DNA of 64,000 nt from Chytridium lagenaria (lineage: Eukaryota; Chytridiomycota; Chytridiomycetes; Chytridiales; Chytridiaceae), in NCBI GenBank assembly GCA_025449115.1, contig JAHLKC010000016.1, forward strand, positions 248,001 to 312,000, in the 5' to 3' direction. The position numbers and the translations under genes were made by a program. The notes under the pieces were generated by a model. It did not search any database. It worked only from the letters and a program-made list of their open reading frames with translations, and was not told where the DNA came from. Shown in pieces: positions 16,210 through 51,832 of the stretch. Position 1 is the first letter of the stretch. Every line of letters starts with the position of its first letter.

Positions 16210-18257
16210 TTAAAATGGAGTGATATCAAACCTCAACTCCACGTTATAATCAAAGCTGTTGGAACTACCTTGACGAGAACGGTTGCCAAAGTCGTTGTTG
16301 CGGGGAGGGTACCCCTGACGGTAAGGCTGGCGCTGGTATGGTTCACGAGCGCCATTCTTAATCATTTCAATGTCAGCGCGAAGGCTAGTCACGTCAACCT
16401 CAGATAACTCGGCATCACCATCAGAGTGGAGGACGGAGTTTAAGGTAGTAACGTACGTGTTTAACGTACGATTGACGAGTTCGTCGCTCATGTTGGGGAA
16501 AGGCAACGGGAGGTCAGTATTCTCGGCGATATGAACCATAAGGTTATCGCGAGTATTGGGAGTCTTTTTTATTTCACGACGAAGTCGGATAACTTCGCGT
16601 TGTCCATCAGAGACTGCTTGAGACAGGGACTCAATTTTCTCTGAAAACGCCTGAACAATGGCCGCAGTTTCGGAGGAGGTATCCAAAGATTTCACCAAAC
16701 GAGGGTGATGAAGTTGCATGTGGTCGACGATGTCGTCGGCACTGACATCTTTGTGGTCCCATTTACGTCCAGAGGTAAAGGTTTCCTTTTTGACGAGGGA
16801 CTTCCAACGGTCATCTTGGCATCCCCGGATGAGGATATCTTTAAGCTTTTCGTCTTGAAGACGGTTAGAGGATGGTAAAGACGTATTAAGGTACGTCAAC
16901 TTATTAAGAGCTTCAAGTGGGCTCATACGCGAGGTATCCCACTGAAACTGTTCAACCTTCGTGGCAAGGTCAGTCACGTCGGTATTAGGTGCAAAATTAC
17001 GACGGAGAACCTTTTTAAGTTGCTCCAACGTCGTCTGAGCTCTGGGAACAAGGTGAGCTACAGAGTCGACGGGGGGCTTCAAGTTGATGGCTGGATTCCA
17101 TGTAACGCGAAAAGCGTGTTCCAGATCATCAAAAGGACGAGCAAGGTCCGGTTTGTTAGGGTCATTAACATACTGATCGAGAATGTTCTCAATCTTTGCA
17201 ATGAAGCGGTAAATGGCCGCCGGTTGAGGGGAGTCCAGAACCACGGTTGCCATATCATCTTTGGCGCTCTTAGCAGTCATGCCATCTTTAATCTTACCAA
17301 ATCCAGGCAAAGAGGCAGACGAAGAAGAGCGGGAAAACCCGCCTGGACCTGCAGCACCGGACATATCGATGGGAGCAGCTGTTTGTACTGGGTTAAAAGT
17401 AGTAGTTACAGTAAGTAGAGACGACGAAGCCGTCGGAATGTTGACTGGAGTCGGAGCTGTAGTCAAAGGAACGACAAGGATGTCGGGTTCGTTGGGTTCG
17501 GCGGGTGGGTCACTTACACGCGGAATCCAAGCAATACTAGAAGACAAAGCTTCTGGAAAGATATCACGAGTATTCCTCAAGTTGGAGAATACTTGGCGAG
17601 ATAAAATGGACCTTGGGCGGAAACCCAGAGGATTAAGAGTGATACCGGCAACTGGAGAGAAGTCCGTTTGGATGGATGGTGAGAAAAGTGCCAACTGAAA
17701 AGCAGTAGCACTTAACTCAGATGTTGACGAGGATTCGTCAAAAGTGTCAGCTGAGGCAGAAGCCTGGGCTGTGTGGCTTGGTGGAGCGAGAACGGTCGCA
17801 ACGCGAGGGTTCAAGACAAGCTCCAAATGAAAAGGGGCTTCAAGATGACGTGGGGCCGTGATAACGGGACCAGCGTGATAAAGAAGCACGAGATCAGCCC
17901 TATTAAATAGGGAATCGCGATGAGAGGCAAGGTAATCTAACGATGCAATCTCACGGCGACCTGATCTGGAATAGGTAACAGAAGGGAAGAAAATGTCGCT
18001 AATTGAAAGAGACTAGGATGAAAAAGAACAGATCCTTCCTCAGTTATCGCGATCACGAGCTGTAAATTCGTGATCAAAGGCGGGGGAACAGAATGGCTTG
18101 CAAAGTTAGCAGCAACAAAAACAAACCACCAGTAAGGCTGTCGGATCACTGGACCACGATGGATGGCAGTGATTAATGTAGCTTGGAAGAAGAATGCGTC
18201 AGAAGAGCGTTCGAGGGTGAAATGGGGGTAGTTCTCCATATCTCTTACTTTTTTCAA
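16210..18257 (-). CDS. Gag-like protein of element A (one frameshift)
   Basis: The main frame is 16210-17889 (559 codons). Comparison with copy B places the true start further up, at MKKVRDMENYPHF (18257, or the second ATG at 18239), with one frameshift near 18000. The N-terminal 150 residues form an aromatic-rich domain (QPYWWFVFVAANF) of no known family. A Ser/Thr/Pro linker follows, then an alpha-helical capsid-like part (IYRFIAKIENILDQYVNDPN, LEQLKKVLRRNF, SRMSPLEALNKLTYL). The C-terminus is rich in Arg, Gln, Gly and Asn (EPYQRQPYRQGYPPRNN) and lacks a CCHC knuckle. It is expected to form the particle that encloses the RNA. Confidence 0.75.
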
Positions 18258-18459
18258 CTTTACATCAAGCGAGAATCGCGAAAATCTTAAAGGAAATCTT
18301 CGGTTTTTGCAGTATTTAACGCGTTTTTGTGTATAATAAAGATCACGTTTGGGGGATAATAAATGATCTATTTTTATTCTATGGTACTTCTTTGTTACTT
18401 ATTTTGACTTATAATAAAGAGTAAAAATGAAAAGGTTAACGCGATAAATCGCATTAACC

Positions 18460-20479
18460 CTATTCAGTGTCCTTCTCGAGGCTAGTAATAGAATCACTGC
18501 CAGCATCACTAGCTTTGGCACTGATGGGAGAAAACTTCGGCGACGTGGAACGCGTCGAGAGAGGTGATTCGTCAATAACCACAGCTTCGGACTCTTCATG
18601 AGCCTTCTTAACGCAAGCGGCATGGGAAGCGACGGCGTTTTCAATACTTTTGCGACGTTCTTCGTTACAGGGGTCGTTGTTCTTCTCTCGAGACGCGACA
18701 AGACGAGCTTTGTATTCTGCTAAGCTCACTTTCTGCTTGACTGAAGCGGAAGCGGCGGCCATGGCATCAGCAGGCTGAAGGTGTCGGCGAACCAAAGCAA
18801 GCGATGAAGAGGTGGCAACCACCTTAGTCTTTGGCTTGTACTCGAGACGATGTAGGAGCGTCGTAAGATCATCAACGAGCATACCATGGTGACGAACTCC
18901 ACGAGGAGCACGTAGAGGGAGGGCAAGAGATTTGCCTTTAACTTGACGAGGGTCAGGAGGTTGGTCAGAAGCATCTGACTCGTCGTCACTGGCATTAACG
19001 GAACCACGAGAGGCGGTTGTCGTATCCGTCGTCGTGTCAAAGGTGTTGACGGCCTCATCAGAAGAGGTCATGACAGTGTCTTTGGTGGGTGTGATGGGAT
19101 CACGGGCGTTCCTCAAGAGCGGCAGCTGGAGGACCACGAGGCTCGGGAGGTGGAGGCGGCATAGCTGGCATGTAACTACCTTGCTTTAAACCAGCCTCGA
19201 GGTCGTGTAATCGCATTTGACTATCAAGAAGTGAAGCCGCGAGCTCTCGACGGATGGAGACGAGAGATGCGTCGGAAAACTTCTTCTCAGGCGAAAGCTC
19301 CTTGACAGTTAATGGAGCGAATCCATCAATAGCGCTGATGCGAGCACTGGTCTCCACAATCATCGTACGAATCTTCACGGCAGTATTGTGAAGGTATTGG
19401 CGCCGTTGCGTCACCAGTGAGATCACAGAATCCAGTTTCTGGCTTCGGTAAGTAGGGTCCCGGTTTAAACGAGACTCGTTAAGGTTAACATCAACCTCCA
19501 GGACCTTCAGTCTATCAGCCATCAAGTGGATGACAGCAATGTTGGATCGACCACTTCCCAACTCCTTCTCACGTCGAGTTGAGGCTTGGGAGGTGGTTTC
19601 AGGAGGAGGAACGACAGGGAGAGCTGGCGCTCGGCGTTTAAGGATGATAACGCGAGGGTCAAGCTGTCCAGCATTCCGTTGGCGGATGGCTTCTTCAAGT
19701 TCAGCCCCGGTAAGTTCCTCCAGAATGGACGGATTATCTTCAGGTTGGAAAAGGTAGATCTCCTCATCCTGCGAGGGCTGTCCAGTCTCTTCCAAAGAAT
19801 TGCGTCGAACATCACGAGGGACATAGGACGATTTCATGTTGCCGTCATCGGCGTCGCAGTCCATGGGCTCAAGAGGCCCTGACGAGAGGGTTTTCTGACG
19901 CTCAACAGGGCGACGAGAGGAGGAGGCGACTTGAGAGAGGTCGTTTTCATCATCACTATCGACAATGATGGTCGTTTTGGCGGCTGCAGCTGCTTTTACG
20001 ACGTTTTTCTTCACTGGCGGGGGTCCAGGAGGAGGAGGAGGTGGTGGAGGCATGCGACCAGCCTCCAGAGCTCTCTGATGCTGAGCGACGGTCCCACGGG
20101 AATCCAGGATCAGAATACCAAGAGACTTGCACTCCTCGTTGGAGAGGTAGCGTTCATCGAGCTCTCCCTTCCTGCGAGGTCTCTGATTGCGCATGAACCG
20201 ATTAAGGTTCTCGTGACAGAAGGGGATCCCCAGCAGAGCGTTCATGGCACGGAATTGAGCCATGATGTTGTTGGAGAGGTCCTTAATGATGGGAAGGTCG
20301 GTGCCTGCCTTCAGCGAGAGGAGGCGCGCGTTTTCAGGGATGCCGGCTCCGTTGAGCCTGGGGCGAGGTTTCTTCTTCTCCACCCTTCCTTTGCTGGCAT
20401 GGTGTTGAGGGTTTCCAGCCTTTCCGCTGGTGTTCTTCTCGGTGGAGGCGTTGCGAGGGCTCACTGAAGTAAACCACAA
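18460..20479 (-). CDS. ORF1 of element A, proline-rich protein of unknown family
   Basis: An extra coding region between leader and gag, formed by frames 19100-20479 (459 codons) and 18460-19137 (225 codons) joined by one frameshift near 19110; copy B reads through this junction. The product would be about 670 residues. Features in order: a basic N-terminus (KGRVEKKKPRPRL), a helical part, a polyproline run (PPPPPPPPGPPP), a SUMO-interacting-motif-like TTIIVDSDDEND, a long helical part (VLEVDVNLNESRLNRDP), a second PPPPPEPRGPPAA and a charged tail ending SLEKDTE. No enzyme motif or zinc knuckle is seen. Most Ty3/gypsy elements have no such ORF. Its role is unknown. Confidence 0.6.
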
Positions 20480-21719
20480 TCATCAAACGATAACGTTAAT
20501 AAAGATGCAAGCACAGCATAAATGGTTTGAATGATGCGTTGGTGCTTACTCTTGAGTCTTTTGTGTGAGGACTTCGATGGGTGGTTGTCAAATCTTTTCA
20601 ACAATTAGACAATTTGTTGTAATAAATGAAATTTCATTTTGAGCTCTTTGCGATGGGAGGCAACTCACGCCAAATGGCGTGAGCTGTTCCCCATCACCTT
20701 GGATTCGTTAATTGTCATTTATATAATTAACGGATCAAACAGGGGTAGCTTTGGAGGATATAGAGCTAAATCCTCCCAAGCCGTCCCGAAATTGTCCTTA
20801 TTTTTTCGAAAATATTTTCTAAGTCTTTTAATGTTATTAATATATTAATAAAATATCGTCGAAAACAAAGAGTTTTCGACGAGAACTTTTGTGAATTCTT
20901 AGTAACTTCTTATAAAGAATCAGAAACGCTTTACAGCAACGTTTTAAGGCCTATTTTGGCCGAGATCCTTTGGACCACCTCTGGCTTCGAGGTTTTGGGC
21001 TAGATAAGGTGGTTCCACAGGGTGGTTTTTCAAAAATGAAATTAATGTGTGTGATGTTTTGATCAAACATCAACACTAAAAATGCACGATCGGCGTCAAT
21101 ATTGACGCTAGAGCGCCCGTTCGACAGCGCAAATGATATGCGTCAGACGGCGCATCTTTTATATAAAAATCGAAAAGAGTTTCTAATTAAAAAGTAAAGT
21201 TTCTATTAAAGTTTATAAAAAGGCAACCTAGAAGGCTGCACTTTTCACAAAATATAGACCAGAGGTCAGGATGACGACAAAGTCGTCAAACGAAAAGGTT
21301 TTGTTAATAAACAATCGAAAAGGTCGAAAGTTTAAGTAACAGGTTTTCTTCTTTTAAGGATCTGGGCGCTCCAGCGCGCAAATCAAGAAGGGTTTTTCAC
21401 ATAATGCTAAGCTTAGGGGGCGAAAGATCGCGGCCTTAGCAAAGCTGTGAAGGTGGGGAGGCTCTGATGCCCATGCAGTGGCTAGGGAGGCTACTAGAGG
21501 GTCCCGGAAGCAGCATGGTGACACAAAATGGACAATGGCCATGCAGAGTGTCAGGGGAGTCCCCTAGCACAATGCAAGGCCACCACCAGAGCTCCAGAGA
21601 CAGCGGGAACGCGTCCACGTTTGTCCAGGGCGGGGGTGCCGATAGGTCATCGAAAAAATCCAAAAGGAAATGACGAAAACCAAAGAGAAATCAACGAAAA
21701 CTCACCAGACACCTTTTTA
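20480..21719 (-). other. Leader of element A
   Basis: About 1.24 kb between primer-binding site and ORF1 without a supported frame. It contains an exact hairpin with 10-bp arms and 5-base loop at 20857-20881 (CGTCGAAAAC / GTTTTCGACG) and a perfect 16-bp palindrome GCGTCAATATTGACGC near 21092-21112; both recur in copy B. Close to ORF1, GTAAGCACC..TTACTTCAG (minus strand) could be a spliced leader intron. Likely holds packaging and translation signals. Confidence 0.6.
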
Positions 21720-21732
21720 GGTTGGGCCCCCA
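21720..21732 (-). other. Primer-binding site of element A
   Basis: On the minus strand TGGGGGCCCAACC starts one base inside the 5' LTR. It is identical in copy B and in the nested element. Its position fixes the element's orientation. Confidence 0.8.
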
Positions 21733-21733
21733 C

Positions 21734-22665
21734 TGTGATCTTCTCTTGACCCATCCCTCCCTACCTAGCTTCGACTAGGGGGTAGGGGAGAAGAGTAAAG
21801 GAGTTGCTCCAGCAGAGCAAGTCCACAGAGCACCTAAAGGACGGATGTACTCCGTCTAAGTGATGTTGTTGTTGTTTGGCGATGTGTGGGTAGTTCGCGA
21901 GGTTCTATTAAATAAAAGGGAGAAGGGAACGGTTTTAGTATCTTCTATATCGACTTACCTTGCTAATAAACCAATATGAGCACCAGATCGTCTCCTGGCG
22001 ATCGGGGATGGCTGAAAGCCTCCTTGCCTTCCTGCTATGGCACCTTTTGGAACGTGAGATCTCGTTGCCTCACGAGCTGGCACAGGGTAACCTCACTCAT
22101 CACCTGCCTGCAGCGTCGATCACCGGCTCAGGGATCATCAGAGGTGGAATGTAGCCGACCAAGCCTAAGCTAAAGGACACTGACAATGAGGAGGACCCTT
22201 GGGCTCCCATCGCAGCCTTCTGCTTCAAACAGCTGGATTGCGGCTTCACCAGGTGGCAGGGGGTAGAGGGGTGGGCTGCCATCCAAGAAGGAGTGAAGGG
22301 AGATCACGGCGAGGCCACGCGCGTGAGATAGAGGATGGGGATCAACTCAATATCAATTACTTAATTCAACATGTACAAATTAAATCAAGAAATCTCTCAT
22401 ATTAAAGTAATACACAAAATACAAATAAATAATAGACACAACATATGCACACACACATAAACGGCACATATGCGCGCCACCTCCTTCAATAAAAACCCTA
22501 TAAACGTGGGGAAAAACTATATATAAAAAACCCAAAGGGAAAAGAAGGGAGGATTCAATATGACGCGTAAATATACGCGTCGACGCGGGATATAACAGAA
22601 CTCAACGGACTTAGTCAAAATGTCGTTATGAGCCATAGGCCATGTGAATAATGTAATTCTTCACA
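21734..22665 (-). repeat. 5' LTR of element A (932 bp)
   Basis: It starts TGTGATC and ends TTCACA in plus-strand text and abuts the primer-binding site. In the block about 100-260 bp from the TGTGATC end it reads CCTAAAGGACGGATGTACTC and TTCTATTAAATAAAAGGGAG, like the 5' LTR of copy B. Its own 3' LTR reads CCTAGGGACAGGATGTACTC there. Other sites agree within the element instead. Confidence 0.93.
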
Positions 22666-24032: not shown

Positions 24033-24966
24033 TGTGAAGAATTACATTATTCACATGGCCTATGGCTCATAAGGACATTTTCTAAGTCCGTTGAGTTCCG
24101 TTATATCCCGCGTCGACGCGTATATTTACGCGTCATATTGAATCCTCCCTTCTTTTCCCTTTGGGTTTTTTATATATAGTTTTTCCCCACGTTTATAGGG
24201 TTTTTATTGAAGGAGGTGGCGCGCATATGTGCCGTTTATGTGTGTGTGCATATGTTGTGTCTATTATTTATTTGTATTTTGTGTATTACTTTAATATGAG
24301 AGATTTCTTGATTTAATTTGTACATGTTGAATTAAGTAGTTGATATTGAGTTGATCCCCATCCTCTATCTCACGCGCGTGGCCTCGCCGTGATCTCCCTT
24401 CACTCCTTCTTGGATGGCAGCCCACCCCTCTACCCCCTGCCACCTGGTGAAGCCGCAATCCAGCTGTTTGAAGCAGAAGGCTGCGATGGGAGCCCAAGGG
24501 TCCTCCTCATTGTCAGTGTCCTTTAGCTTAGGCTTGGTCGGCTACATTCCACCTCTGATGATCCCCGAGCCGGTGATCGACGCTGCAGGCAGGTGATGAG
24601 TGAGGTTACCCTGTGCCAGCTCGTGAGGCAACGAGATCTTCACGTTCCAAAAGGTGCCATAGCAGGAAGGCAAGGAGGCTTTCAGCCATCCCCGATCGCC
24701 AGGAGACGATCTGGTGCTGATATTGGTTTAGAGCAAGGTAAGTCGATAATGAAGATACTAAAACCGTTCCCATCTCCCTTTTATTTAATAGAACTCGCGA
24801 AAACTACCCACACAGCCAAAACAACAACTAACATCACTTAGACGGCGGAGTACATCCGTCCTTTAGGTGCTCTGTGGACTTGCTCTGCTGGAGCAACTCC
24901 TTTACTCTTCTCCCCTACCCCCTAGTCGAAGCTAGGTAGGGAGGGATGGGTCAAGAGAAGATCACA
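24033..24966 (+). repeat. 5' LTR of element B (934 bp)
   Basis: Starts TGTGAAGAATTACATTATTC and ends AGATCACA. A TATATATAG motif near 24170 is a candidate promoter TATA. Its variable block resembles the 5' LTR of A, while at other sites (for example CCCCGAGCC against CCCTGAGCC in the same orientation) it agrees with its own 3' LTR. Confidence 0.93.
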
Positions 24967-24967
24967 G

Positions 24968-24980
24968 TGGGGGCCCAACC
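24968..24980 (+). other. Primer-binding site of element B
   Basis: TGGGGGCCCAACC lies one base after the LTR. Same sequence and spacing as in element A. Confidence 0.8.
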
Positions 24981-26230
24981 TAAAAAGGTGTCTGGTGAGT
25001 TTTCGTTGATTTCTCTTTGGTTTTCGTCATTTCCTTTTGGATTTTTTCGATGACCTATCGGCACCCCCGCCCTGGACAAACGTGGACGCGTTCCCGCTGT
25101 CTCTGGAGCTCTGGTGGTGGCCTTGCATTGTGCTAGGGGACTCCCCTGACACTCTGCATGGCCATTGTCCATTTTGTGTCACCATGCTGCTTCCGGGACC
25201 CTCTAGTAGCCTCCCTAGCCACTGCATGGGCATCAGAGCCTCCCCACCTTCACAGCTTTGCTAAGGCCGCGATCTTTCGCCCCCTAAGCTTAGCATTATG
25301 TGAAAAACCCTTCTTGATTTGCGCGCTGGAGCGCCCAGATCCTTAAAAGAAGAAAACCTGTTACTTAAACTTTCGACCTTTTCGATTGTTTATTAACAAA
25401 ACCTTTTCGTTTGACGACTTTGTCGTCATCCTGACCTCTGGTCTATATTGTGAAAAGTGCAGCCTTCTAGGTTGCCTTTTTATAGACTTTAAATAGAAAC
25501 TTTATTTTTAATTAGAAACTCTTTTCGATTTTTATATCAAAAGATGCGCCGTCGGCGCACATCATTTGCGCTGTCGAACGGGCTCTCTAGCGTCAATATT
25601 GACGCCGATCGTGCATTTTTAGTGTTGATGTTTGATCAAAACATCACACACATTAATTTCATTTTGAAAAACCACCCTGTGGAACCACCCTATCTAGCCC
25701 AAAACCTCGAAGCTAGAGGTGGTCCCAAGGATCTCGGCCAAAATAGGCCTTAAAACGTTGCTGTAAAGCATTTCGGATTCTTTATAAGAAGTTATTAAGA
25801 ATTCACAAAAGTTCTCGTCGAAAACTCTTTGTTTTCGACGATATTTTATTAATATATTAATAATATTAAAAGACTTAGAAAATATTTTCGAAAAAATAAG
25901 GACAATTTCGGGACGGCTTGGGAGGATTTAGCTCTATATCCTCCAAAGCCACCCCTGTTTGATCCGTTAATTATATAAATGACAATTAACGAATCCAAGG
26001 TGATGGGGAACAGCTCACGCCATTTGGCGTGAGTTGCCTCCCATCGCAAAGAGCTCAAAATGAAATTTCATTTATTACAACAAATTGTCTAATTGTTGAA
26101 AAGATTTGACAACCATCCATCGGAGTCCTCACACAAAAGAGTAAGCACCAACGCATCATTCAAACCATTTATGCTGTGCTTGCATCTTTATTAACGTTAT
26201 CGTTTGATGATGTTTACTTCATCAGTGAGC
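24981..26230 (+). other. Leader of element B
   Basis: About 1.25 kb without a supported gene, matching the leader of A. It contains the palindrome GCGTCAATATTGACGC near 25591-25606 and the CGTCGAAAAC..GTTTTCGACG hairpin near 25817-25841. GTAAGCACC..TTACTTCATCAG before ORF1 may be an intron or its remnant. Confidence 0.55.
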
Positions 26231-28216
26231 CCTCGCAACGCCTCCACTGAGAAGAACACCAGCGGAAAGGCTGGAAACCCTCAACACCATGCCAAAAAGG
26301 AAGGGTGGAGAAGAAGAAACCTCGCCCCAGGCTCAACGGAGCCGGCATCCCTGAAAACGCGCGCCTCCTCTCGCTGAAGGCAGGCACCGACCTTCCCATC
26401 ATTAAGGACCTCTCCAACAACATCATGGCTCAATTCCGTGCCATGAACGCTCTGCTGGGGATCCCCTTCTGTCACGAGAACCTTAATCGGTTCATGCGCA
26501 ATCAGAGACCTCGCAGGAAGGGAGAGCTCGATGAACGCTACCTCTCCAACGAGGAGTGCAAGTCTCTTGGTATTCTGATCCTGGATTCCCGTGGGACCGT
26601 CGCTCAGCATCAGAGAGCTCTGGAGGCTGGTCGCATGCCTCCACCACCTCCTCCTCCTCCTGGACCCCCGCCAGTGAAGAAAAACGTCGTAAAAGCAGCT
26701 GCAGCCGCCAAAACGACCATCATTGTCGATAGTGATGATGAAAACGACCTCTCTCAAGTCGCCTCCTCCTCTCGTCGCCCTGTTGAGTGTAAAAACCTCT
26801 CGTCGGGGCCTCTTGAGCCCATGGACTGCGACGCCGATGACGGCATTAAATCTTCCTATGTCCCTCGTGATGTTCGACGCAATTCTTTGGAAGAGACTGG
26901 ACAGCCCTCGCAGGATGAGGAGATCTACCTTTTCCAACCTGAAGATAATCCGTCCATTCTGGAGAACTTACCGGGGCTGAACTTGAAGAAGCCATCCGCC
27001 AACGGAACGCTGGACAGCTTGACCCTCGCGTTATCATCCTTAAACGCCGAGCGCCAGCTCTCCCTGTCGTTCCTCCTCCTCAAACCACCTCCCAAGCCTC
27101 AACTCGACGTGAGAAGGAGTTGGGAAGTGGTCGATCCAACATCGCCGTCATCCACTTGATGGCCGATAGACTGAAGGTCCTGGAGGTTGATGTTAACCTT
27201 AACGAGTCTCGTTTAAACCGGGACCCTACTTACCGAAGCCAGAAGCTGGATTCTGTGATCTCACTGGTGACGCAACGACGCCAATACCTTCACAATACCG
27301 CCGTGAAGATTCGTACGATGATTGTGGAGACCAGTGCTCGCATCAGCGCTATTGATGGATTCGCTCCATTAACTGTCAAGGAGCTTGCGCCTGAGAAGAA
27401 GTTTTCCGACGCATCTCTCGTCTCCATTCGTCGAGAGCTCGCGGCTTCACTTCTTGATAGTCAAATGCGATTACACGACCTCGAGGCTGGTTTAAAGCAG
27501 GTAGTTACATGCCAGCTATGCCGCCTCCACCTCCTGAGCCTCGTGGTCCTCCAGCTGCCGCTCTTGAGAAACGCCGTGATCCCATCACACCCACCAAAGA
27601 CACTGTCATGACCTCTTCTGATGAAGCCATCAACACCTTTGACACGACGACGGATACACAACCGCCTCTCGTGGTTCCGTTAATGCCAGTGACGACGAGT
27701 CAGATGCTTCTGACCAACCTCCTGACCCTCGTCAAGTTAAAGGCAAACTCTTGCCCTCCCTCTACGTGCTCCTCGTGGAGTTCGTCACCATGGTATGCTC
27801 GTTGATGATCTTACGACGCGCTACATCGTCTCGAGTACAAGCCAAAGACTAAGGTGGTTGCCACCTCTTCATCGCTTGCTTTGGTTCGCCGACACCTTCA
27901 GCCTGCTGATGCCATGGCCGCCGCTTCAGCTTCAGTCAAGCAGAAAGTGAGCTTAGCAGAATACAAGGCTCGTCTTGTCGCGTCTCGAGAGAAGAACAAC
28001 GACCCCTGTAAACGAAGAACGTCGCAAAAGTATTGAAAACGCCGTCGCTTCCCATGCCGCTTGCGTTAAGAAGGCTCATGAAGAGTCCGAAGCTGTGGTT
28101 ATTGACGAATCACCCTCTCGACGCGTTCCACGTCGCCGAAGTTTTCTCCCATCAGTGCCAAAGCTAGTGATGCTGGCAGTGATTCTATTACTAGCCTCGA
28201 GAAGGACACTGAATAG
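26231..28216 (+). pseudogene. ORF1 of element B, frameshifted
   Basis: This is the counterpart of the ORF1 of A. It is recognisable from the KKKPRPRLNGAGIPENARLL segment, the polyproline run, the IIVDSDDEND motif and the final EKDTE stop at 28214-28216. It is broken into at least five frames (26305-27159, 27120-27611, 27509-27805, 27854-28036, 27975-28277). Conserved blocks still align with A along the full length, so decay or sequence error is by small indels rather than rearrangement. Unknown family. No enzyme motif. Confidence 0.6.
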
Positions 28217-28415
28217 GGTTAATGCGATTTATCGCGTTTACCTTTTCATTTTTACTCTTTATTATAAGTCAAAATAAGTAACAAAGAAGTACCATAGAAA
28301 AAATAGATCATTTATTATCCCCAAACGTGATCTTTATTATACACAAAAACGCGTTAAATACTGCAAAAACCGAAGATTTCCTTTAAGATTTTCGCGATTC
28401 TCGCTTGATGTAAAG

Positions 28416-30440
28416 TTGAAAAAAGTAAGAGATATGGAGAACTACCCCCATTTCACCCTCGAACGCTCTTCTGACGCATTCTTCTTCCAAGCTACATTAA
28501 TCACTGCCATCCATCGTGGTCCAGTGATCCGACAGCCTTACTGGTGGTTTGTTTTTGTTGCTGCTAACTTTGCAAGCCATTCTGTTCCCCCGCCTTTGAT
28601 CACGAATTTACAGCTCGTGATCGCGATAACTGAGGAAGGATCTGTTCTTTTTCATCCTAGTCTCTTTTCAATTAGCGACATTTTCTTCCCTTCTGTTACC
28701 TATTCCAGATCAGGTCGCCGTGAGATTGCATCGTTAGATTACCTTGCCTCTCATCGCGATTCCCTATTTAATAGGGCTGATCTCGTGCTTCTTTATCACG
28801 CTGGTCCCGTTATCACGGCCCCACGTCATCTTGAAGCCCCTTTTCATTTGGAGCTTGTCTTGAACCCTCGCGTTGCGACCGTTCTCGCTCCACCAACCAC
28901 ACAGCCCAGGCTTCTGCCTCAGCTGACACTTTTGACGAATCCTCGTCAACATCTGAGTTAAGTGCTACTGCTTTTCAGTCGGCACTTTTCTCACCATCCA
29001 TCCAAACGGACTTCTCTCCAGTTGCCGGTATCACTCTTAATCCTCTGGTTTCCGCCCAAGGTCCATTTTATCTCGCCAAGTATTCTCCAACTTGAGGAAT
29101 ACTCGTGATATCTTTCCAGAAGCTTTGTCTTCTAGTATTGCTTGGATTCCGCGTGTAAGTGACCCACCGCCGAACCCAACGAACCCGACATCCTTGTCGT
29201 TCCTTTGACTACAGCTCCGACTCCAGTCAACATTCCGACGGCTTCGTCGTCTCTACTTACTGTAACTACTACTTTTAACCCAGTACAAACAGCTGCTCCC
29301 ATCGATATGTCCGGTGCTGCAGGTCCAGGCGGGTTTTCCCGCTCTTCTTCGTCTGCCTCTTTGCCTGGATTTGGTAAGATTAAAGATGGCATGACTGCTA
29401 AGAGCGCCAAAGATGATATGGCAACCGTGGTTCTGGACTCCCCTCAACCGGCGGCCATTTACCGCTTCATTGCAAAGATTGAGAACATTCTCGATCAGTA
29501 TGTTAATGACCCTAACAAACCGGACCTTGCTCGTCCTTTTGATGATCTGGAACACGCTTTTCGCGTTACATGGAATCCAGCCATCAACTTGAAGCCCCCG
29601 TCGACTCTGTAGCTCACCTTGTTCCCAGAGCTCAGACGACGTTGGAGCAACTTAAAAAGGTTCTCCGTCGTAATTTTGCACCTAATACCGACGTGACTGA
29701 CCTTGCCACGAAGGTTGAACAGTTTCAGTGGGATACCTCGCGTATGAGCCCACTTGAAGCTCTTAATAAGTTGACGTACCTTAATACGTCTTTACCATCC
29801 TCTAACCGTCTTCAAGACGAAAAGCTTAAAGATATCCTCATCCGGGGATGCCAAGATGACCGTTGGAAGTCCCTCGTCAAAAAGGAAACCTTTACCTCTG
29901 GACGTAAATGGGACCACAAAGATGTCAGTGCCGACGACATCGTCGACCACATGCAACTTCATCACCCTCGTTTGGTGAAATCTTTGGATACCTCCTCCGA
30001 AACTGCGCCATTGTTCAGGCGTTTTCAGAGAAAATTGAGTCCCTGTCTCAAGCAGTCTCTGATGGACAACGCGAAGTTATCCGACTTCGTCGTGAAATAA
30101 AAAGACTCCCAATACTCGCGATAACCTTATGGTTCATATCGCCGAGAATACTGACCTCCCGTTGCCTTTCCCCAACATGAGCGACGAACTCGTCAATCGT
30201 ACGTTAAACACGTACGTTACTACCTTAAACTCCGTCCTCCACTCTGATGGTGATGCCGAGTTATCTGAGGTTGACGTGACTAGCCTTCGCGCTGACATTG
30301 AAATGATTAAGAATGGCGCTCGTGAACCATACCAGCGCCAGCCTTACCGTCAGGGGTACCCTCCCCGCAACAACGACTTTGGCAACCGTTCTCGTCAAGG
30401 TAGTTCCAACAGCTTTGATTATAACGTGGAGTTGAGTTTG
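28416..30440 (+). pseudogene. Gag-like gene of element B, frameshifted
   Basis: It begins MKKVRDMENYPHF at 28416 and reads to 28961, showing the intact N-terminal domain that is frameshifted in A (FSISDIFFPSVTYSRSGRRE). The capsid-like part continues in frames 29205-29612 and 29570-30100, and the Arg/Gln/Gly-rich tail in 30129-30503. As in A there is no CCHC knuckle between the basic tail and the protease-like segment. With A it defines a gag of roughly 680 residues. Confidence 0.7.
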
Positions 30441-31660
30441 ATATCACTCCATTTAATTACCCAAAGTTCTCTAATGGAATTGGTGGACGAGAGCGTATTC
30501 TAGGAATATGCAGACTCAACGTATCTCCTGGAATTACTCCTGGAGTTAGGAAGAAACTTCCTTTCTATATAGTGGAAAACTGTCCGCGGCCAGTGATTCT
30601 TGGCATGCCAACGGTGCAAGCCTTCCACATGGATATTCTAGCTAGTTCTCACAAACTACGCTACTTCTATTATGCCCTACTCTTAAAGGCAGAAAGGTAA
30701 AAGCTTACGAGACACCTTTGAAGGTAATAACAAAGGGTTCACTTACAAGAGTAAGTCACCCTACATACGAATTGTCCTCGCTAAGGAGGCTCAGTTCGAC
30801 CCTGATTACGGAACAACCGTGTGGTGTGTCTTTGATAGGCTGCCAGACGTTCCTTCCGCAAACTACACCGTTCTTCCTCGTCAGGACTTTACTGACTTTG
30901 ACGCGGAAAGGACCGTATACTCACACGCAGACCTGTTTCCCAACGGAATGCAGGCGTACGTTGCGACGATGGTCGCCTTGTACCAGACATGGAACCATTC
31001 CCTCTACAGGTTGGTCATCGAGGACCTTTCCAACCTCTTTACCACCAGGAACGTGTTTTGGGTATATTCATGACGACCCTAAACAACAGTTCACTGACTT
31101 CATCCCCATCCATGAGGATGATCAGGATGACCCTGCTGCATGCCTCTATATCAAAACAGAGGTCACCGCAAATAGACGGATTAAAACACTCCAAGATTTT
31201 GGAAACCATCTCAACCTTCTCATTAATGGCATTGGTGCTGTTGATGACGATGGTAAAGAAAAGGTCAGCCGTGCTGACACCCGCCGCCTTCTTAGGAAGA
31301 GCAGCGATAAAGGGAAGTACCCACAGAGTAACGTACTTCTCACCTTACACAAGCTTGAAAAAGCGAAACTGCCACCAGAGGAGTCTCGAGACCCCCTCTT
31401 GGATGTGCCCGACACGGATATCCTGACTTCCAAAAGGAGTTAGATCCCGTTGACGAAGGATACGGCTCAATGCCTGATATTCCCCCTCTTCCTGACTTTG
31501 TCACAAAAGCTCTGCTGGAAACTCCAGCTGACGATGGCCCTGATTTGGAAGAGCCCTCCCGTCATAGACCTCATGACACCACGAATGAGGATCGCATGGA
31601 TTACCTTAAGAATATGGATCCTATATCCACTGAGGATCTCTGAAGAAGTTTGATCTTCAG
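30441..31660 (+). pseudogene. Partial retropepsin-like segment and spacer, element B
   Basis: RLNVSPGITPGVRKKLPFYI runs on in one frame into VENCPRPVILGMP, showing that these two strands belong together in this copy. In A a missing base separates them. No D-T/S-G active site is seen upstream. The spacer to RT follows in several frames (30718-31443, 30989-31426), with the same FGYIHDDPK and LLINGIGAVDDDG blocks as A. Confidence 0.6.
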
Positions 31661-33060
31661 CACATTACTGATATGCAACTGCGTGAGCGACTCATCCAGT
31701 TCTTGTCAATTCCTAAGAACGCTGATGTCTTTCGTGAATACGTTAGAACAGGCACAAAGGACCCTGGTTACCATACCATTGAAACAAAACCATATTCTCG
31801 CCCTCCCAACATGGCTCCTTACCCGTTGGTTTAGAGCGCGCTAAGATCATCCGCGACCATGTCGAGGAAATGCTGAAGACTGGCGTCATCAGGAAGTCAC
31901 GCTCTCCTCACGCATCTCCCGTGTGTCTCGCGAAAAAGAAGGACGGTGCTGACAGATTCTGCACTGACTTCCGTCGTCTCAATGAGATCACAATAAAGGA
32001 TAAGTATCCTTTACCACGCATTGATGAGACCTTTGATCGGTTAGCCGGGATGTGTCTCTTCTCATCCCTTGATCTCCTCTCAGGCTTTTGGCAAATACCT
32101 GTAGCCCCAGAGGATCGTCACAAAACTGCCTTTGTTACCCCAGATGGACTCTATGAGTACAACGTGATGCCCTTTGGCCTCACAAATAGTCCACCAACTT
32201 TCCAGAGATGCATGGACTTAGTCCTCGCTGGAATAAAGTGGATCAAATGTATGGTGTACATTGACGATATTATCATAATTCTCAACGGATGTGGATTCCA
32301 CTTCGAAAATCTTCAGCTGTATTTGATAGATTATATGAATACAACCTAAAGCTTAAGCCTAAGAAGTGTCAGTTCCTTTTCAAGGTCTTACCCTTCCTGG
32401 GTCATATCGTCTCTGAAGATGGGCATAAAAGCAGATCCTGATAAGCTTGTGAAGCTTGAAGATTGGCCTGTACCAAAAACAGTCAAGGATATTCAACGAT
32501 TCCTTGGTTTCACTTAATTATTTTCGACGGTTTTGTACCCACTTCACTGACGTCGCAAAACCATTATATGATCTCACTCGCAAAGAGATCTCATTTGACT
32601 GGACTGCCTCCTGTGAAGCAGCCTTTCGACGCTTGATAGATATACTCAAATCTGAGGTACTATTAGTAACTCCATTACCAGACGATAAGTTCGTTATATC
32701 TTGCGATGCTTCTAAGTACGCAATTGGTGCTGCGCTTTTTGTGAATCGCGACGGCATATACCATCCTGTAGCTTTTGCTTCACGCACGTTGAACGATGCT
32801 GAGCAGAACTACTCTAACACTGACCGCGAGGGTCTCGCTGTTGTGTGGTCTTCAAATCTCTTTGAGACTTACACATGGCGCAAACCATACCGCATTGAGA
32901 CTGATCACTCAGCCTTAATTCCCCTGTTTGCTAGAGGTGACCTGAAGGGCCGCTTTGCCCGATGGTCATACTCTCTACAGGATCATGAGATTGAGTTGGT
33001 TCATGTTCCCGGCAAGAGCCAGGCCGTTGCCGACGCTCTCTCACGCAGCTTCAAACCCCC
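31661..33060 (+). pseudogene. Reverse transcriptase and RNase H of element B, frameshifted
   Basis: The frame 31870-32349 covers the RT fingers and palm: KSRSPHASPVCLAKKKDGAD, RRLNEITIKDKYPLPRID, SSLDLLSGFWQIPV and YIDD at 32257-32268. A frameshift after YIDDIII ends this frame. The RNase H part is open at 32456-33139 with ISCDASKYAIGAALF, LAVVWSSNLFET, ETDHSAL and VADALSR. The junction of RT palm with DFRRLNE is intact here and frameshifted in A, so the two copies complement each other as evidence for the domain. Confidence 0.88.
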
Positions 33061-33773
33061 AAAGCCTATACCTGATGATGACTCAGAGGTTGGTGACTTC
33101 CCTGAGACGCCCCTCGAGTCTTTATCGGAAAGATGCTAAAGTTAAGAACAAAGAACTTTTGCAAACTATAACTTCTGCAATTAGCATTGATTATACCCAC
33201 CCGCCCGCCCATGTCTTTTCTCCTTCTCAAAAACGGGAGTTTGATCTGATCGACCATTGCTTTCCAGTGAAGTTATCTTCCCTGAACAGCTCATTGACAA
33301 TGTCTTTGTCAGGATAAAGTCATCTCGATTGAAGGACATTCTCGAGAGACGCAGACTATTTGAATATCAAAAACGGGAGTTCACAGGAACTACCCGATTC
33401 TGGATTTGCCAGGTGCCTGATCCTGAGGTCAACTCCTCTCGCGCACCTAGGCACATACCTGGACAAATCACCATGTCATAACAGTTAATGCTGGTATACC
33501 ACCAGATGCTGTAAACTACCCAGTGCCTGACACTGGTCCAAAATCTCTAAGTAGTTTTTACGCTTATGAAATACTTGAGATACGTGAGCTCTTCTCACCC
33601 CTCAATGAAAAGAGAACTACTGCAGAATCACCCCCATCTCTACGCGAGATATATGGCGTTGAGAGAACGACGGCCCTGCCTGATGTTCCTTCTCGTATGA
33701 TCCAGACTTCCCACCAGAGTCAATGAAAAAGTTATATCCCATTGATGATATACAAACACCATTCCGCTCTTCC
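33061..33773 (+). pseudogene. RNase H to endonuclease linker, element B
   Basis: Same linker as in A, in broken frames 32955-33317, 33257-33481 and 33523-33726. REIYGVERTTALPDVPSRM ends just before the endonuclease domain. No known family. Confidence 0.55.
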
Positions 33774-34580
33774 AAGCTGAAGATTATAAGTTGGAATGTG
33801 AAAGCCTTCAGCTCTTGTTAAGAAACATTTGCAAAGAGAATTGAAGGTGATGAATCCAATAGAGCAGAGTTCTTTGCTAAATATTTGGATGAAATGAATG
33901 TGACATCGCCTGCTTCCAAGAGACTATGGTCGGCGATGGTCATGAAAAGTTTTGGCAACAACTGAAGTCCGTCCGCGGATGGAAGATGTTGCTGACGATA
34001 AAAGAAATGGACATAATGGTGTTATGACCATGGTCCGCGAAGATATCCCCGTACTTTCAGTGATATGTGGGACTCATATGATGCGCACTGACTTCGACGA
34101 CTTTGTTGAAGAGGGACGTGCCTTACACTCTGCCTTTTAGGTATGAATATAGTGAATGTCTATGCGCCAAATGGCACGAGGCATGATCACAGACAGGAAT
34201 ACAAGATGAAGTTCCTGGAACGACTACATACTTTTGTAAAGAGTCTCAAGCTCAGTCAAATACAATTGTTGTAGGCGATTTCAATATTGCTCACAAAGCA
34301 ATTGATGTTCGAGAACCATCCAGATTTTATGGATACTCTGGATTCCGCAACGATGAACGCTACTGGCTTAGCTCATTCATTAACTTAGGTTTTAAGGATG
34401 GATTTCGTCATAGCCATCCGCATACGCCAGGATATACTTGGCATGACCAACAGAGTTCTATAAAGCTGTTTGGAGAATAGACTAGCCTTTGTAGATAAAC
34501 GAATTCCTTGTAAATGGAATGTTAACCACCATTTCGTGGCTTCACTGACTGACCATGAAATGGTTGAATTGGTCTTAGAG
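33774..34580 (+). pseudogene. Exonuclease III/APE1-type endonuclease domain inside element B pol
   Basis: The same domain as in copy A, at the same place between RNase H and integrase, about 807 bp. It reads KIISWNV, then ACFQETMVGDGHEKFWQQ, GHNGVMTMVREDIPV, NIVNVYAPNG, TIVVGDFNIAHKAID, NDERYWLSSFINLGFKDGFR, PHTPGYTWHD, WRID and LTDHEMV. Small indels interrupt it repeatedly. The stop after WRID is shared with copy A, where the family would have a Tyr (WRIDY). Presence in both independently inserted copies shows that the domain was part of the ancestral element. Confidence 0.83.
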
Positions 34581-35720
34581 CACAGCGATGCTCACCACAA
34601 TGATTATGATAACATGATCTCATTGCCAGCACTTGACTTACCTGATCAAGAGCCACCGCATGAAGCCCCAAACAACCCCGGGCCTTCTTCAATGATAGGA
34701 ATGCAATACTTTCCCAATGCCTTCATGGCTAATGGACAGATATCTGGTGACTTTATTAAAGCCCAAAGAAATGACTTGAGATTTGCAGACGTCATCAAGT
34801 TCCTAGAGAAAGGAATCCTTCCTGAGGATCCTGATCTAAGAAAGGGTGTTTTAATGAATGCCCAGAATATGGTGATGCGTGGTAGAGTTCTCTACCGTGT
34901 ACTCTATGTGAAGGACTACCTCATGCGACGATCGCCAGTGCGAGTCGCTTTATGTGTCCCCAAAAGACTTCAGGACGTTGCGTTTGACGCCGTCCATGAT
35001 GATATGATGGCTGGAGGACACCTCGGTGTTCGCAGACTTATCGCCACTACCCTAGATAGGTTCTGGTGGCCTACTATCCAAAAAGACTTAGAGGCATATA
35101 TACGACGATGCCCTACATGTCAACAATCTAAAGATAACTTGACTAGAAAAGGTGCCGTGAGGCCCATACCCTTTGGTCATAGACCTTGGGATCGTGTTGC
35201 CATCGATATTGTTGGTCCTATGAACACTAGCCAACGTGGCAACAAGTATATTGTTGTCCTCACAGACTACTTTACCCGTTGGGCCGATGCGTTTGCCGTC
35301 CCCGACTTAGAAGCAAACACCATTGCTAGAATAGTTGTTGAGCAATGCTTTTGCCGCTTCGGCATTCCCTTGACCTTACACTCGATCAAGGACAACCATT
35401 TCCTAGTGACCTCTTTAAGAGAGTTTCTACTGTACTAGGAATGAAACAATCCTTCTCTATGCCGTATTGGCCTCAGGCCAACGGTTTAGTTGAACGAACA
35501 AACAAAACTCTATGCCAGATGATACGTGCATATATAAACCAAAGAACACATGACGATTGGGATGAAATACTCCCCTATGTGTTGTTTGCATACAGAACAA
35601 CGGTCCACCAGACCACAAATGAAACCCCATTCATGATGATGTTTGGCCGTGAAGCGTTTACGCCGGCTGACCTCAAGTTTGGTTATCCCACAGACGATGT
35701 GTTTGCGGAAGAATATCCTG
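34581..35720 (+). pseudogene. Integrase of element B, frameshift at the second catalytic Asp
   Basis: The frame 34470-35438 carries the HHCC finger (GGHLGVRR, CPTCQQSK) and the first Asp (AIDIVGPMN). At about 35384 one G is missing relative to A, turning HSDQGQ into HSIKDN. The remainder, with DQGQPFPSDLFKR and GLVERTNKTLCQM (Glu), continues in frame 35345-36034. As assembled this integrase cannot be made as one active chain. Confidence 0.85.
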
Positions 35721-37562
35721 ACCCACGATTATGGGCTCAGACAGGAGAAGAACCTCTGATAGCTGTTTCCACTACTAGAATACTGCGGAGCTCTCCCAAA
35801 ATACTTGCTATGTTCTCTGAACAGCTACACTTCTTTGACGGCCGCTTAGCGCGAGCTGCTCATGGACTTGCTCGGACTGATGGTCGAGAGCCTTACTTGC
35901 TCATAGCTGACGTCCTTAAGAAATATGGTTATGATCTATTTTACCTTGTCCACATCCACTCGATGAAGGACTTGGACACACTTTCCAATGGAGATCCTTT
36001 GGAAGGAATGAATCCTCCCAGATGCATTCGTTAACTCGTAAAGCGAAAACGACTGCATGGGAAAGAAAAAGATGCCTATGTATCTATTATTCATAATGGC
36101 TGTATGACCGAACGCCCACATTTGCGTGACAGTTACCCCATATTTGTTGACAACGCCATGAACTTATATGTCAACGACACTCTGGTACTTTCCCCAGATA
36201 TTATACACCTCAATGCTGGCCGTCCCCTTGTTGACGATGGACCTGCACGGCATGTGAGAATCATTGAACTTGAAGTCAATGACGATCAGGATGACTATGT
36301 TCTCCTGAAGATGATATAGACACTGACACACATGTGAGTGTGCTCATGAATACTCGACAAGCCCTTCAGGACTTTGTCAAAGAATCCCTCAACGATGATG
36401 ATGATCGTTTGGAGGCTAAAGATTATGTTACTCAGCTAGCTGCTAGGCTAGCCTACTCCAAGGCTGTACTCTTGCGTGCAGAACTTAAACGCAAGAGACG
36501 AGCACAACAAATAAACCCAGTCGCAACAAACACTCGTTTGATGTTGGCGACCTGGTATGGCTCTCTGTTCCCTTGAAGACTGAACGTCGAGGGAAAGAGA
36601 ACAAGAATGCCCCCACTAAGAAGTTCCAATTTAGATGGGCTGGCCCTATGCGTGTCCTTAGTAAATCTATGGACAGCAATAGATACACAGTTGTAGAGCT
36701 CCTCCCTGGAGGCCAGCTCTTATCACGACTTGCTAATGCTGCCTAGACTCCGACCATTTGAGTCTTTGCCGCCTACAGAAACTGCTAATGCTGCATCTGC
36801 AGAAGTAGCTTCAGATGACTTTGCTGCTGAGATTGCAGCATGGAAAGAACTCCAAGTTATTAGACGCATGCCTAAGAATAAGGTAGCTGTTGGAGTTAAT
36901 CGTGAATTGTTTCGACGATTTGATGAAGAAGTTGCTGATGCTGACTATAATGATCCTGAGTTCTATGTTGAGAAAACTGGATTATCATACTTATGATTCT
37001 CATAACAAAAAGTATAAGTATTATGTTAAATGGCTCGGTCATGGAACCGCGCATAACCTTCTAATGGATGAAGAGGCCTTACCCCCATCCATAGTTAAAG
37101 ACTACTGGGACCGTGTTGCTAAAACACAGCCCACAGCATATGCTCTAAGAGTAGTATATGAAAAGAATGCTGGCCGCAAGAGACTTGCGCCTAAGCCCAT
37201 ATCCTACACGATGCCTGAAGATAATGATGGTTATCGTAGTGAGGATGAAGATGAAGGTATCCTTGATGATACCCCTCCTAGCCCCATAAAGAAACGTAAG
37301 CGCAAGCAAAACGTTCTTTACGGCAGGCTGTACATATAGATTCTGATGACCAGAATCCTATTGAAATGAAGTTCCTCAGTCGGAACCTGATATGATAATC
37401 ATCTTGATGATGATTATCCTGATAATAACTTTGAAGTACCTTTAGCTATGAGATGCTAGATGGTAACAATTATATAACTCTTGCCAATACTTGGCCTTAT
37501 AGACTTGCCGATAATGCAAGCTCTGATATATTACAGATAGTTCTTATACTTCTGACAACTAA
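35721..37562 (+). pseudogene. GPY/F-like, chromodomain-like and acidic tail of element B pol
   Basis: Counterpart of 4218-10873 of A without the nested element. It contains LHFFDGRLARAAHGLARTDG, PHLRDSYPIFVDNAMN, the GPY/F-like FRWAGPMRVLSKSMDSNRY, KKYKYYVKWLG of the chromodomain-like part and the acidic MPEDNDGYRSEDEDEG tail. The sequence around 37200-37215 (ATCCTACACGATGCCTGAAG) is the empty site of the nested insertion. Frames change at least five times. Confidence 0.65.
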
Positions 37563-37590
37563 GTTAGACTTTTCTTACGTAAGTCTTTTC

Positions 37591-37604
37591 TTAAAAACGG
37601 AGAA
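37591..37604 (+). other. Polypurine tract of element B
   Basis: TTAAAAACGGAGAA abuts the 3' LTR. It matches the tract of A except for one G. Confidence 0.7.
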
Positions 37605-38544
37605 TGTGAAGAATTACATTATTCACATGGCCTATGGCTCATAAGGACATTCCGTCTAAGTCCGTTGAGTTCCGTTATATCCCGCGTCGACGCGTATATT
37701 TACGCGTCATATTGAATCCTCCCTTCTTTTCCCTTTGGGTTTTTTATATATATTTTTCCCCATGTTTATAGGGTTTTTATTGAAGGAGGTGGCGCGCATA
37801 TGTGCCGTTTATGTGTGTGTGCATATGTTGTGTCTATTATTTATTTGTATTTTGTGTATTACTTTAATATGAGAGATTTCTTGATTTAATTTGTACATGT
37901 TGAATTAAGTAGTTGATATTGAGTTGATCCCCCATCCTCTATCTCACGCGCGTGGCCTCGCCGTGATCTCCCTTCACTCCTTCTTGGATGGCAGCCCACC
38001 CCTCTACCCCCTGCCACCTGGTGAAGCCGCAATCCAGCTGTTTGAAGCAGAAGGCTGCGATGGGAGCCCAAGGGTCCTCCTCATTGTCAGTGTCCTTTAG
38101 CTTAGGCTTGGTCGGCTACATTCCACCTCTGATGATCCCCGAGCCGGTGATCGACGCTGCAGGCAGGTGATGAGTGAGGTTACCCTGTGCCAGCTCGTGA
38201 GGCAACGAGATCATCACGTTCCAAAAGGTGCCATAGCAGGAAGGCAAGGAGGCTTTCAGCCATCCCCGATCGCCAGGAGACGATCTGGTGCTCATATTGG
38301 TTTATTAGCAAGGTAAGTCGACATAGAAGATACTAAACACGTTCCCTTCTCCCTTTAATTAAGCAGAACCTCGCGATCACTCACCCACACCATCGCCAAA
38401 CAACAACAACATCACTTAGATTCAGGAGTACATCCTGTCCCTAGGTGCTCTGTGGACTTGCTCTGCTGGAGCAACTCCTTTACTCTTCTCCCCTACCCCC
38501 TAGTCGAAGCTAGGTAGGGAGGGATGGGTCAAGAGAAGATCACA
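37605..38544 (+). repeat. 3' LTR of element B (940 bp)
   Basis: Starts TGTGAAGAATTACATTATTC and ends AGATCACA, then GAGG. In the variable block it matches the 3' LTR of A base for base as far as I compared (for example TTCAGGAGTACATCCTGTCC and TTAATTAAGCAGAACCTCGC), unlike its own 5' LTR. Confidence 0.93.
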
Positions 38545-44546: not shown

Positions 44547-45664
44547 ATGCGATACGCCTTCATCCTCTCTACTCTCATTCTGGTCGTTGCGTCAAGCCTG
44601 GCTGTTCTTGCAGCCCCTATCCCTGTGAAGTTGCAAGAGGTCCTCTATGCGCAAGACGATGACGATGCCGATGCCATTAGGACTCCTCCGTTCGTTGATT
44701 GGGATCAATATGACCCTCAGCCCGATGATGACGAGGACGATGGTGCCATCCGCACCCCGCCCTTCAGACCGATCCCGCCTAAGGAAAAGAACCCAAACCG
44801 AGGCAAAAGTGATAACATCTTGCGGCAACACCCCTTCGCAGCGGAGAGGTTCGCGTCAATGTTCCAGGCCATGGCGTTCTTCATGTTCTTCACTACCAGA
44901 ACAAGTTCAATAGCAAGAGCGCTATCTTGTTCCTGGAATCCGATGATGGGAAGGTTGAGCTCGTTACCCTTACTGGTCGCAGAGCCAGAATTCTTGGAAA
45001 GGCCGTCTCAAGGGCCTTGACTGTAGACGCGGCCAGCAAGAGAACGGAAGACGTTCAGGCTGCTTCTATTAATCGCGGCAACAAGGCCGGGGATGAGCTC
45101 CCGCTCCTTCCAATCAAAGATTACGGCAGAGTATATGATTTTGGTGTCAAGGATGGGGATATGAACATTCTTCCCATCAAGGATGCTGATGGCGAGGTCA
45201 ACATTCTTCCCATTGACAATGATGGTGAAGTCGACACTCTTCCTATTGACGAAGATGGCGAGGTCGGCATTCTTCCGATCAAGGATGATGGAGATGTCAA
45301 CATCTTGCCCATCAACAATGACGGTGAAGTCAGCATTCTCCCAATTGATGAGGACGGCGAAGTCAACATCCTTCCCTTTAACGATGACGGAGAAGTAAAT
45401 ATTTTACCTATCACGGACGATGGAGATGTCAACATCTTGCCTATTAATGACGGCGGAGACCTACACATTCTCCCCATTGGCAAGGGCAAGGACGAACGCA
45501 CCAGTTCATTCGCTGATGAGGACGGCGAAGTCAGTATCCTTCCCATCAAAGAAGGTGATGAGGTCCACATTCTTCCCATCAAGGACGAGGAAGGAAAAAT
45601 GGACGGCAAAGCTCGCATTCGTAGTGTTCTTGAGAAGAAAGCAGCTCAGTTGCGTCGTCCTTAA
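44547..45664 (+). CDS. Secreted acidic repeat protein (LPI repeats)
   Basis: The product starts MRYAFILSTLILVVASSLAV and LAAPIPVK, a clear signal peptide with probable cleavage after LAA. An Asp-rich part with two copies of AIRTPPF follows. The second frame, from about 44900, carries AILFLESDDGKVELVTLTG and then 13 units with LP[IF], consensus DGEVxILPIxxD, about 12 residues each (for example DGEVSILPIDEDGEVNILPF). The C-terminus is basic (ARIRSVLEKKAAQLRR). The two frames overlap and must be joined by an intron or a one-base frameshift near 44850-44900; I found no clean intron. No Kex2-type KR sites separate the units. No known family; presumably a cell-wall or extracellular protein. Confidence 0.65.
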
Positions 45665-51820: not shown

Positions 51821-51832
51821 TGGTGTTTTGCG

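Follow-up and report, generated by a model that had tools for sequence, protein, structure and literature searches.

Known systems and the present family

Long interspersed nuclear elements (LINEs, or non-LTR retrotransposons) with an APE nuclease have neither long terminal repeats (LTRs) nor an integrase, and their endonuclease/exonuclease/phosphatase (EEP) domain lies upstream of the reverse transcriptase (RT). Here we describe a family of Ty3/gypsy-type (Metaviridae) retrotransposons in which an ExoIII/APE1-class EEP domain lies downstream of RNase H, ahead of the integrase. Two decayed copies of one such element lie in a 64,000-nucleotide stretch (the window, meaning the whole stretch analysed) of an assembly labelled Chytridium lagenaria (GCA_025449115.1, contig JAHLKC010000016.1, positions 248,001 to 312,000, forward strand). 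With Ty3/gypsy chromodomain retrotransposons the family shares LTRs, a primer-binding site, the order RT, RNase H and H2C2/DDE integrase, a chromodomain match below cut-off and 4-bp target duplications; it differs from them by the nuclease, often with a long linker, before the integrase, and 29 other RNase H rows of the same genome have no EEP. With APE-type LINEs it shares an EEP-fold nuclease in a retroelement, but the window elements do not have the layout of a LINE, as they have LTRs, an integrase, target duplications and the nuclease after RNase H. The elements are of Ty3/gypsy type as judged by domain families and domain order.

Two further systems resemble the family in having gained an enzyme of nucleic-acid upkeep. 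Non-primate lentiviruses with a dUTPase carry this DNA-integrity enzyme in pol, after RNase H and ahead of integrase (PMC4531489), although it is another enzyme and works on the nucleotide pool, not on DNA. Likewise, a study of orchid Ty3/gypsy elements describes the gain of an AlkB demethylase, a repair-type nucleic-acid enzyme, but as a separate additional open reading frame (ORF) acting on RNA, whereas the domain in the window family is inside pol (PMC9289625). An earlier sequence-only reading of this DNA, which first pointed out the nuclease, would have yielded to a prior published description; none of an EEP in an LTR element was found in the open-access full-text literature, judged by title, start of abstract and term counts (Repbase, subscription journals and supplements are outside this scope). 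The accessible part of a survey of fungal LTR elements reports additional domains in complex elements and mentions no such nuclease (PMC3248453).

Intact relatives encode RT, nuclease and integrase in one frame

The window's own genome (41.9 Mb, 356 contigs) contains relatives with open frames. The frame on C198 (2573 aa) contains RVT_1, RT_RNaseH, Exo_endo_phos (5e-12), H2C2, rve and a sub-cutoff Chromo match, and that on C95 (1604 aa) has the same order from RT to integrase, with the EEP at 3e-19. Across the intact relatives, Pfam Exo_endo_phos is matched at E 2.5e-19 to 5e-12, and the open frames retain the integrase domains, per Pfam. A chromodomain after integrase marks the chromovirus branch; the Chromo match scores 20.7 bits in C198 and 18.7 bits in C95, under the 25.1-bit cut-off, at the right position. 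A metagenomic polyprotein of 3585 aa (P0001, 41% identical, the sole match of its search) also joins RT, RNase H, EEP and integrase in a single chain. The combination of RT, EEP and DDE integrase in one ORF, proposed as a check by the sequence-only reading, is thus found both in the 2573-aa frame and in the metagenomic protein.

Three fungal names occur among the 120 EEP profile relatives listed of 1710 (Irineochytrium annulatum, Phlyctochytrium bullatum and Dinochytrium kinnereticum), all of them Chytridiaceae, and the Dinochytrium kinnereticum fragment has the linker as well as the EEP. These names make a chytrid the probable host of the family. The best 80 of 551 relatives on genome contigs are 26-31% identical, and their titles are all bacterial. 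On viral contigs, one of the 65 pattern matches encodes a relative; none of the five ORFs of at least 250 aa on that contig looks retroelement-like, and the RT query had no match among viral contigs.

Two decayed copies in the window

Self-BLAST and inspection of the ends place two copies of one LTR retrotransposon in the window, with four LTRs of 0.93-0.94 kb. The copies lie in opposite orientation, and their inverted match covers 13.26 kb at 97.9% identity. Both have LTR ends of the TG...CA type (TGTGA...TCACA), the primer-binding site and a perfect 4-bp target duplication, GAGG for copy 2 and TGGC for copy 1. The features are as follows.

24033-38544 (+): element copy 2, LTR to LTR, target duplication GAGG (self-BLAST, end inspection)
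24033-24967 (+): 5' LTR of copy 2 (TGTGAAG...TCACA), then primer-binding site TGGGGGCCCAACC (self-BLAST, end inspection)
31870-33055 (+): RT and RNase H of copy 2, frame-broken (tblastn with C198 RT-RNase H, 71% identity, two pieces)
33047-33767 (+): linker between RNase H and EEP, copy 2 (tblastn with C76 linker)
33768-34604 (+): ExoIII/APE1-class EEP segment of copy 2, frame-broken (97.8% DNA identity to the open-frame C76 copy)
34848-35710 (+): integrase of copy 2, H2C2 and DDE core (tblastn with C198 integrase, 63-71%)
36895-37228 (+): chromodomain region of copy 2 (tblastn; query, the C198 stretch that holds the sub-cutoff Pfam Chromo match)
37605-38544 (+): 3' LTR of copy 2 (self-BLAST, end inspection)
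3235-22665 (-): element copy 1, target duplication TGGC, split by a nested LTR element at 4582-9444 (self-BLAST, end inspection)
21733-22665 (-): 5' LTR of copy 1 (self-BLAST, end inspection)
16210-18012 (-): 600-aa ORF in gag position, copy 1, named by position alone (no Pfam match over cut-off)
13609-14792 (-): RT and RNase H of copy 1 (Pfam RVT_1 2e-32, RT_RNaseH 2e-28; tblastn)
12892-13617 (-): linker of copy 1 (96% to C76 linker)
12051-12891 (-): EEP segment of copy 1, frame-broken (96.5% DNA identity to C76; Pfam 24.8 bits on the first part)
10967-11804 (-): integrase of copy 1 (Pfam Integrase_H2C2 1e-17, rve 1.5e-12; tblastn)
9460-9720 (-): chromodomain region of copy 1 (tblastn)
3235-4175 (-): 3' LTR of copy 1 (self-BLAST, end inspection)

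The order RT, RNase H, EEP and integrase, as the sequence-only reading had it for both copies, is upheld by tblastn and Pfam. Direct adjacency of RNase H and EEP did not stand, since some 240-250 linker codons lie between them in the window subfamily. The full 846-nt EEP of an open-frame homologue in the same genome (C76, locus L024) aligns to both window copies, in which the EEP frame is interrupted, with pieces in different frames and stops in the C16 rows; the suggestion that both copies encode about 270 codons of nuclease therefore fits the intact relatives and not the window copies. The Pfam Exo_endo_phos match in the copy 1 ORF barely passes, at 24.8 bits for a cut-off of 24.5.

The linker of C95 and of C198 had no Pfam match, the best PHROGs match was at E 0.044 to a family without known function, and the linker profile against the PDB gave one sequence match at E 2.2 and none below. 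Its AlphaFold model (mean pLDDT 39.9) was too poor for a structure search. A likeness to ASCH/PUA-like nucleic-acid readers, noticed by eye, was confirmed by neither Pfam, PHROGs nor PDB, and we dropped it. By eye, the linker apparently contains two repeats in the C198 and C324 types (L012:5488-6651), and it is much shorter in P0001 and C135.

The EEP is present throughout one RT lineage

The genome was mapped from 82 RNase H rows, 84 integrase finger rows and two sets of EEP rows (105, plus 16 of the 120 from a further EEP search). The genome search scores the best candidates alone, exon by exon, and each count refers to match rows and not to loci, two rows coming from C168 and two from C298. 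Among all 82 RNase H rows, 32 are followed by EEP and then integrase, 7 are followed by EEP but show no integrase, 29 lead to integrase without an intervening EEP, and 14 stand alone; the spacing is unusual in a few, with the EEP 6-10 kb off in 2 of the 32 and 4 kb off in 1 of the 7, and the integrase at 5.9 kb in 1 of the 29.

When rows with an RT at least 51% identical to that of C198 are set apart as lineage A (35 rows), the same four classes number 25, 7, 0 and 3, i.e., an EEP lies downstream of RNase H in 32 of the 35 and none goes straight to integrase. The remaining rows, lineage B excluded (n=42), number 2, 0, 29 and 11. The three lineage-A rows with neither EEP nor integrase are C273, at a contig end, and C115 and C296, which are unexplained. 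C355, a 94-aa piece of the conserved RT start in which RNase H goes straight to integrase, is 49% identical, just below the cut, and was counted with the others. The five lineage-B rows were picked for a downstream EEP match, so that their five out of five, being by construction, is no test of EEP presence; two further rows have lineage-B-like spacing.

The EEP is thus present throughout RT lineage A of these Ty3/gypsy-type elements. Family members precisely lacking the segment, which would have reduced it to a chance event, did not appear among the 35 rows, and a one-off insertion is ruled out by these counts.

Nuclease class, active site and selection

The resemblance to cellular ExoIII/APE repair enzymes suggested from the sequence was borne out by profile scores. 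NCBIfam xth (TIGR00633) matched six of six relatives over its curated cut-off (130-160 bits against 99, E 7e-38 to 6e-47), so that both profile families expected, Exo_endo_phos and xth, were found, the latter in a comparison confined to relatives of the window copies. The element EEP profile matched its best ExoIII at 1e-42, APE1 at 1e-32 and LINE nucleases at 3e-10 to 3e-9, which rules out a LINE origin of the nuclease on profile scores; the match to E. coli ExoIII itself is weaker (2e-16). LINE nucleases were not among the matches listed by Foldseek and VIA, from which we draw no inference. The fold matches include APE1 exonuclease complexes and the 3' phosphatase NExo, and their titles also name exonuclease and uridine endonuclease.

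The catalytic positions are invariant in six EEPs that are 40-73% identical to the first. In a 24-row alignment, each of the five own-genome lineage-A rows, all of intact relatives, has the residues common in cellular enzymes at all 18 checked positions; these positions we take to be, with their roles and APE1 numbering assumed, the catalytic Asn, Glu, Tyr, Asp, Asn, Asp and Asp-His, and the SGF and Trp of the abasic pocket. The pocket is retained in the six aligned EEPs and in the five own-genome rows. EEP dN/dS, a check proposed at the outset, was low (0.069, 0.042 and 0.097) in the three of six pairs with unsaturated dS, which shows purifying selection on the EEP.

Predicted role and its rivals

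Both Ty3/gypsy-type copies in the window are decayed, and the pol of their family carries a conserved ExoIII/APE1-class nuclease. Its predicted role is the repair and 3'-end cleaning of the element's own cDNA, a reading to which we give slightly better than even credence. The nuclease would be made as part of Pol and would come to lie beside RT and RNase H in the virus-like particle, where it may act on the element's own cDNA, cutting at abasic sites and tidying 3' ends that are blocked or mismatched, for RT to extend them. An intact duplex would then reach the integrase, and it would be the integrase, not the nuclease, that inserts the DNA, because the insertions run LTR to LTR with integrase-type ends. 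Action on cDNA is favoured because the nuclease is fused into Pol, its active site is kept under selection and the abasic pocket is found in most rows read. By analogy, the element would have its own piece of base-excision repair, comparable to the non-primate lentiviral dUTPase at the same pol position; there, the dUTPase is encoded after RNase H and before IN, and the repair of uracil proceeds by way of an apurinic endonuclease (PMC4531489).

Several observations weigh against a role in cDNA repair. The pocket Trp is not universal, as the C6 nuclease (L078, outside the 24-row alignment) has, by eye, Cys at two positions that are otherwise Trp in lineage A; lineage B has other residues at 3 of the 18 checked positions, with Phe for one pocket Trp; and lineage A has a shorter loop ahead of the pocket Trp than ExoIII/APE1. 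The EEP also diverges faster than the RT (40% against 70% identity between C198 and C95), and no glycosylase or ligase domain is among the Pfam matches of the open frames. Nor can the substrate be read from fold or residues, because ExoIII-class folds also include 3' phosphatase, exonuclease and uridine endonuclease.

We would like to note that the two Trp-to-Cys changes were seen by eye in a divergent lineage-A nuclease represented by both L078 (C6) and L059 (C135), and that they may possibly mark a shift of substrate.

Both 3' exonuclease and RNase H activities occur in the ExoIII family. The main rival is a 3'-to-5' exonuclease or RNase-H-like trimmer that would proofread RT, strip untemplated 3' bases or primer RNA, and ready the ends for integrase, abasic sites being incidental. 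The APE1 exonuclease complexes and NExo among the fold matches, the closeness of the nuclease to RNase H in pol and the loss of the pocket Trp in the C6 sublineage (by eye) all speak for it, and the Cys residues there shift slight weight from cDNA repair to trimming. Nevertheless, the SGF and Trp of the pocket, kept in the six EEPs and the five own-genome rows, seem more than trimming needs, and we consider this explanation possible but rather unlikely.

Less likely, and in our view improbable, is that the nuclease nicks the chromosomal target in the manner of a LINE, priming synthesis or steering integrase to damaged or uracil-rich targets. LINEs do use an EEP nuclease for target priming, and the chromodomain region could tether Pol to chromatin. 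However, both copies and the nested element (three insertions) extend from one LTR to the other, have TG...CA ends and are flanked by perfect 4-bp duplications, the open frames retain integrase domains, and the domain is of ExoIII/APE1 type, with LINE nucleases matching far more weakly. LINE-like priming is disfavoured because of the target duplications and the integrase, and the mixed mode of integration raised by the sequence-only reading fares no better, given the ends and duplications of both window copies.

That the domain is a nuclease-fold spacer or nucleic-acid-binding part with no need of catalysis is very improbable: catabolite repression control protein, a fold relative with lost catalysis, is among the distant matches of the EEP, but the invariant catalytic positions argue against such a role. 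An artefact, either a one-off insertion or a mis-assembly beside a retrotransposon, can be practically dismissed, for although the window copies are frame-broken and form a 13-kb inverted repeat of 97.9% identity, their target duplications differ, and related sequence occurs on many contigs, in the metagenome polyprotein and in chytrid proteins.

Origin of the nuclease and a second lineage

The EEP of the family differs from ExoIII/XthA and APE1 in its place in a retrotransposon polyprotein and its shorter loop, and also in its phylogeny. In trees that used 23 of the 117 other listed EEP profile matches (1710 in all), the lineage-A EEPs, with those of the metagenome and of chytrids among them, group as a single clade (100/98) in a 36-row tree and again in a 34-row tree; the trees name neither a bacterial nor a eukaryotic source. 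A probable host APE1 lies at C71:40042-40957 (-), in two pieces, 52% and 41% identical to a ctenophore APE1, with a stop inside each. The genome search with the element EEP, which scores best candidates alone, did not recover it, and a recent capture of the host gene is therefore weakly disfavoured.

Lineage B (loci L073, C11:220901-224400, and L075, C94:155501-157800) has an ExoIII-type EEP between RNase H and integrase with a short spacer. Its C11 member is a long branch that joins lineage A in the best tree at 34/80 support, but a tree constrained to group B with four ExoIII rows, two of them named Oceanithermus, is statistically acceptable (p-AU 0.496). By BLAST, cellular ExoIII gives the lineage-B EEP a higher score (126 bits) than lineage A does (80 bits). 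RT identity between A and B is 29-32%, and their integrases, 23-24% identical, are no nearer to each other than each is to those of two EEP-less elements (25-28%). A protein search with lineage B found none at E<=1e-20 among 8000 scored candidates. From the trees, BLAST scores and RT and integrase identities, the lineage-B nuclease was possibly captured at this slot independently of that of A. We put forward only tentatively, and with some doubt, the wider idea that two distant Ty3/gypsy-type lineages independently took ExoIII-class nucleases at the same pol slot, and that RT, RNase H and nuclease would together form a machine for cDNA repair or proofreading, the first known among LTR retroelements.

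Other features of the window

The element nested in copy 1 (4582-9444) has 953-bp LTRs, TG...CA ends and its own duplication, GTAG; the C76-EEP query gave no tblastn match inside it, and it is perhaps a deletion derivative. Its primer-binding site is the same as that of the host elements, and its chromodomain region is 60% like that of C198. Between the 5' LTR and the gag-position ORF lie one or more proline-rich extra ORFs (18460-20479 (-) and 26251-27611 (+)), for which Pfam gave nothing over cut-off in copy 1. By eye, a long stretch of unexplained sequence separates the integrase core from the chromodomain region further on, in the window (35700-36550 (+)), in L012 and in P0001.

Outside the two copies, a DBI_PRT (CobT-like) phosphoribosyltransferase is encoded in two frames at 51821-52999 (+) (7e-16 and 4e-28), a cobalamin-pathway gene in a probable fungus. 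At 45164-45447, a 33-bp tandem repeat of 8.5 copies codes for repeated ILPI..DGEV units.

Implications

As a practical matter, a survey of co-opted domains derived from transposable elements in fungi ascribes Exo_endo_phos to LINEs (PMC10799480), an ascription to be treated with caution given the EEP in LTR elements. The lentiviral dUTPase and the ExoIII-class nuclease described here, perhaps gained twice, suggest that DNA-integrity enzymes dock repeatedly at the junction of RNase H and integrase. Part of what separates LTR elements from LINEs is integrase as against EEP, and here one polyprotein has both an ExoIII/APE1-class EEP and a DDE integrase, which makes the repair or proofreading of cDNA by retroelements testable.
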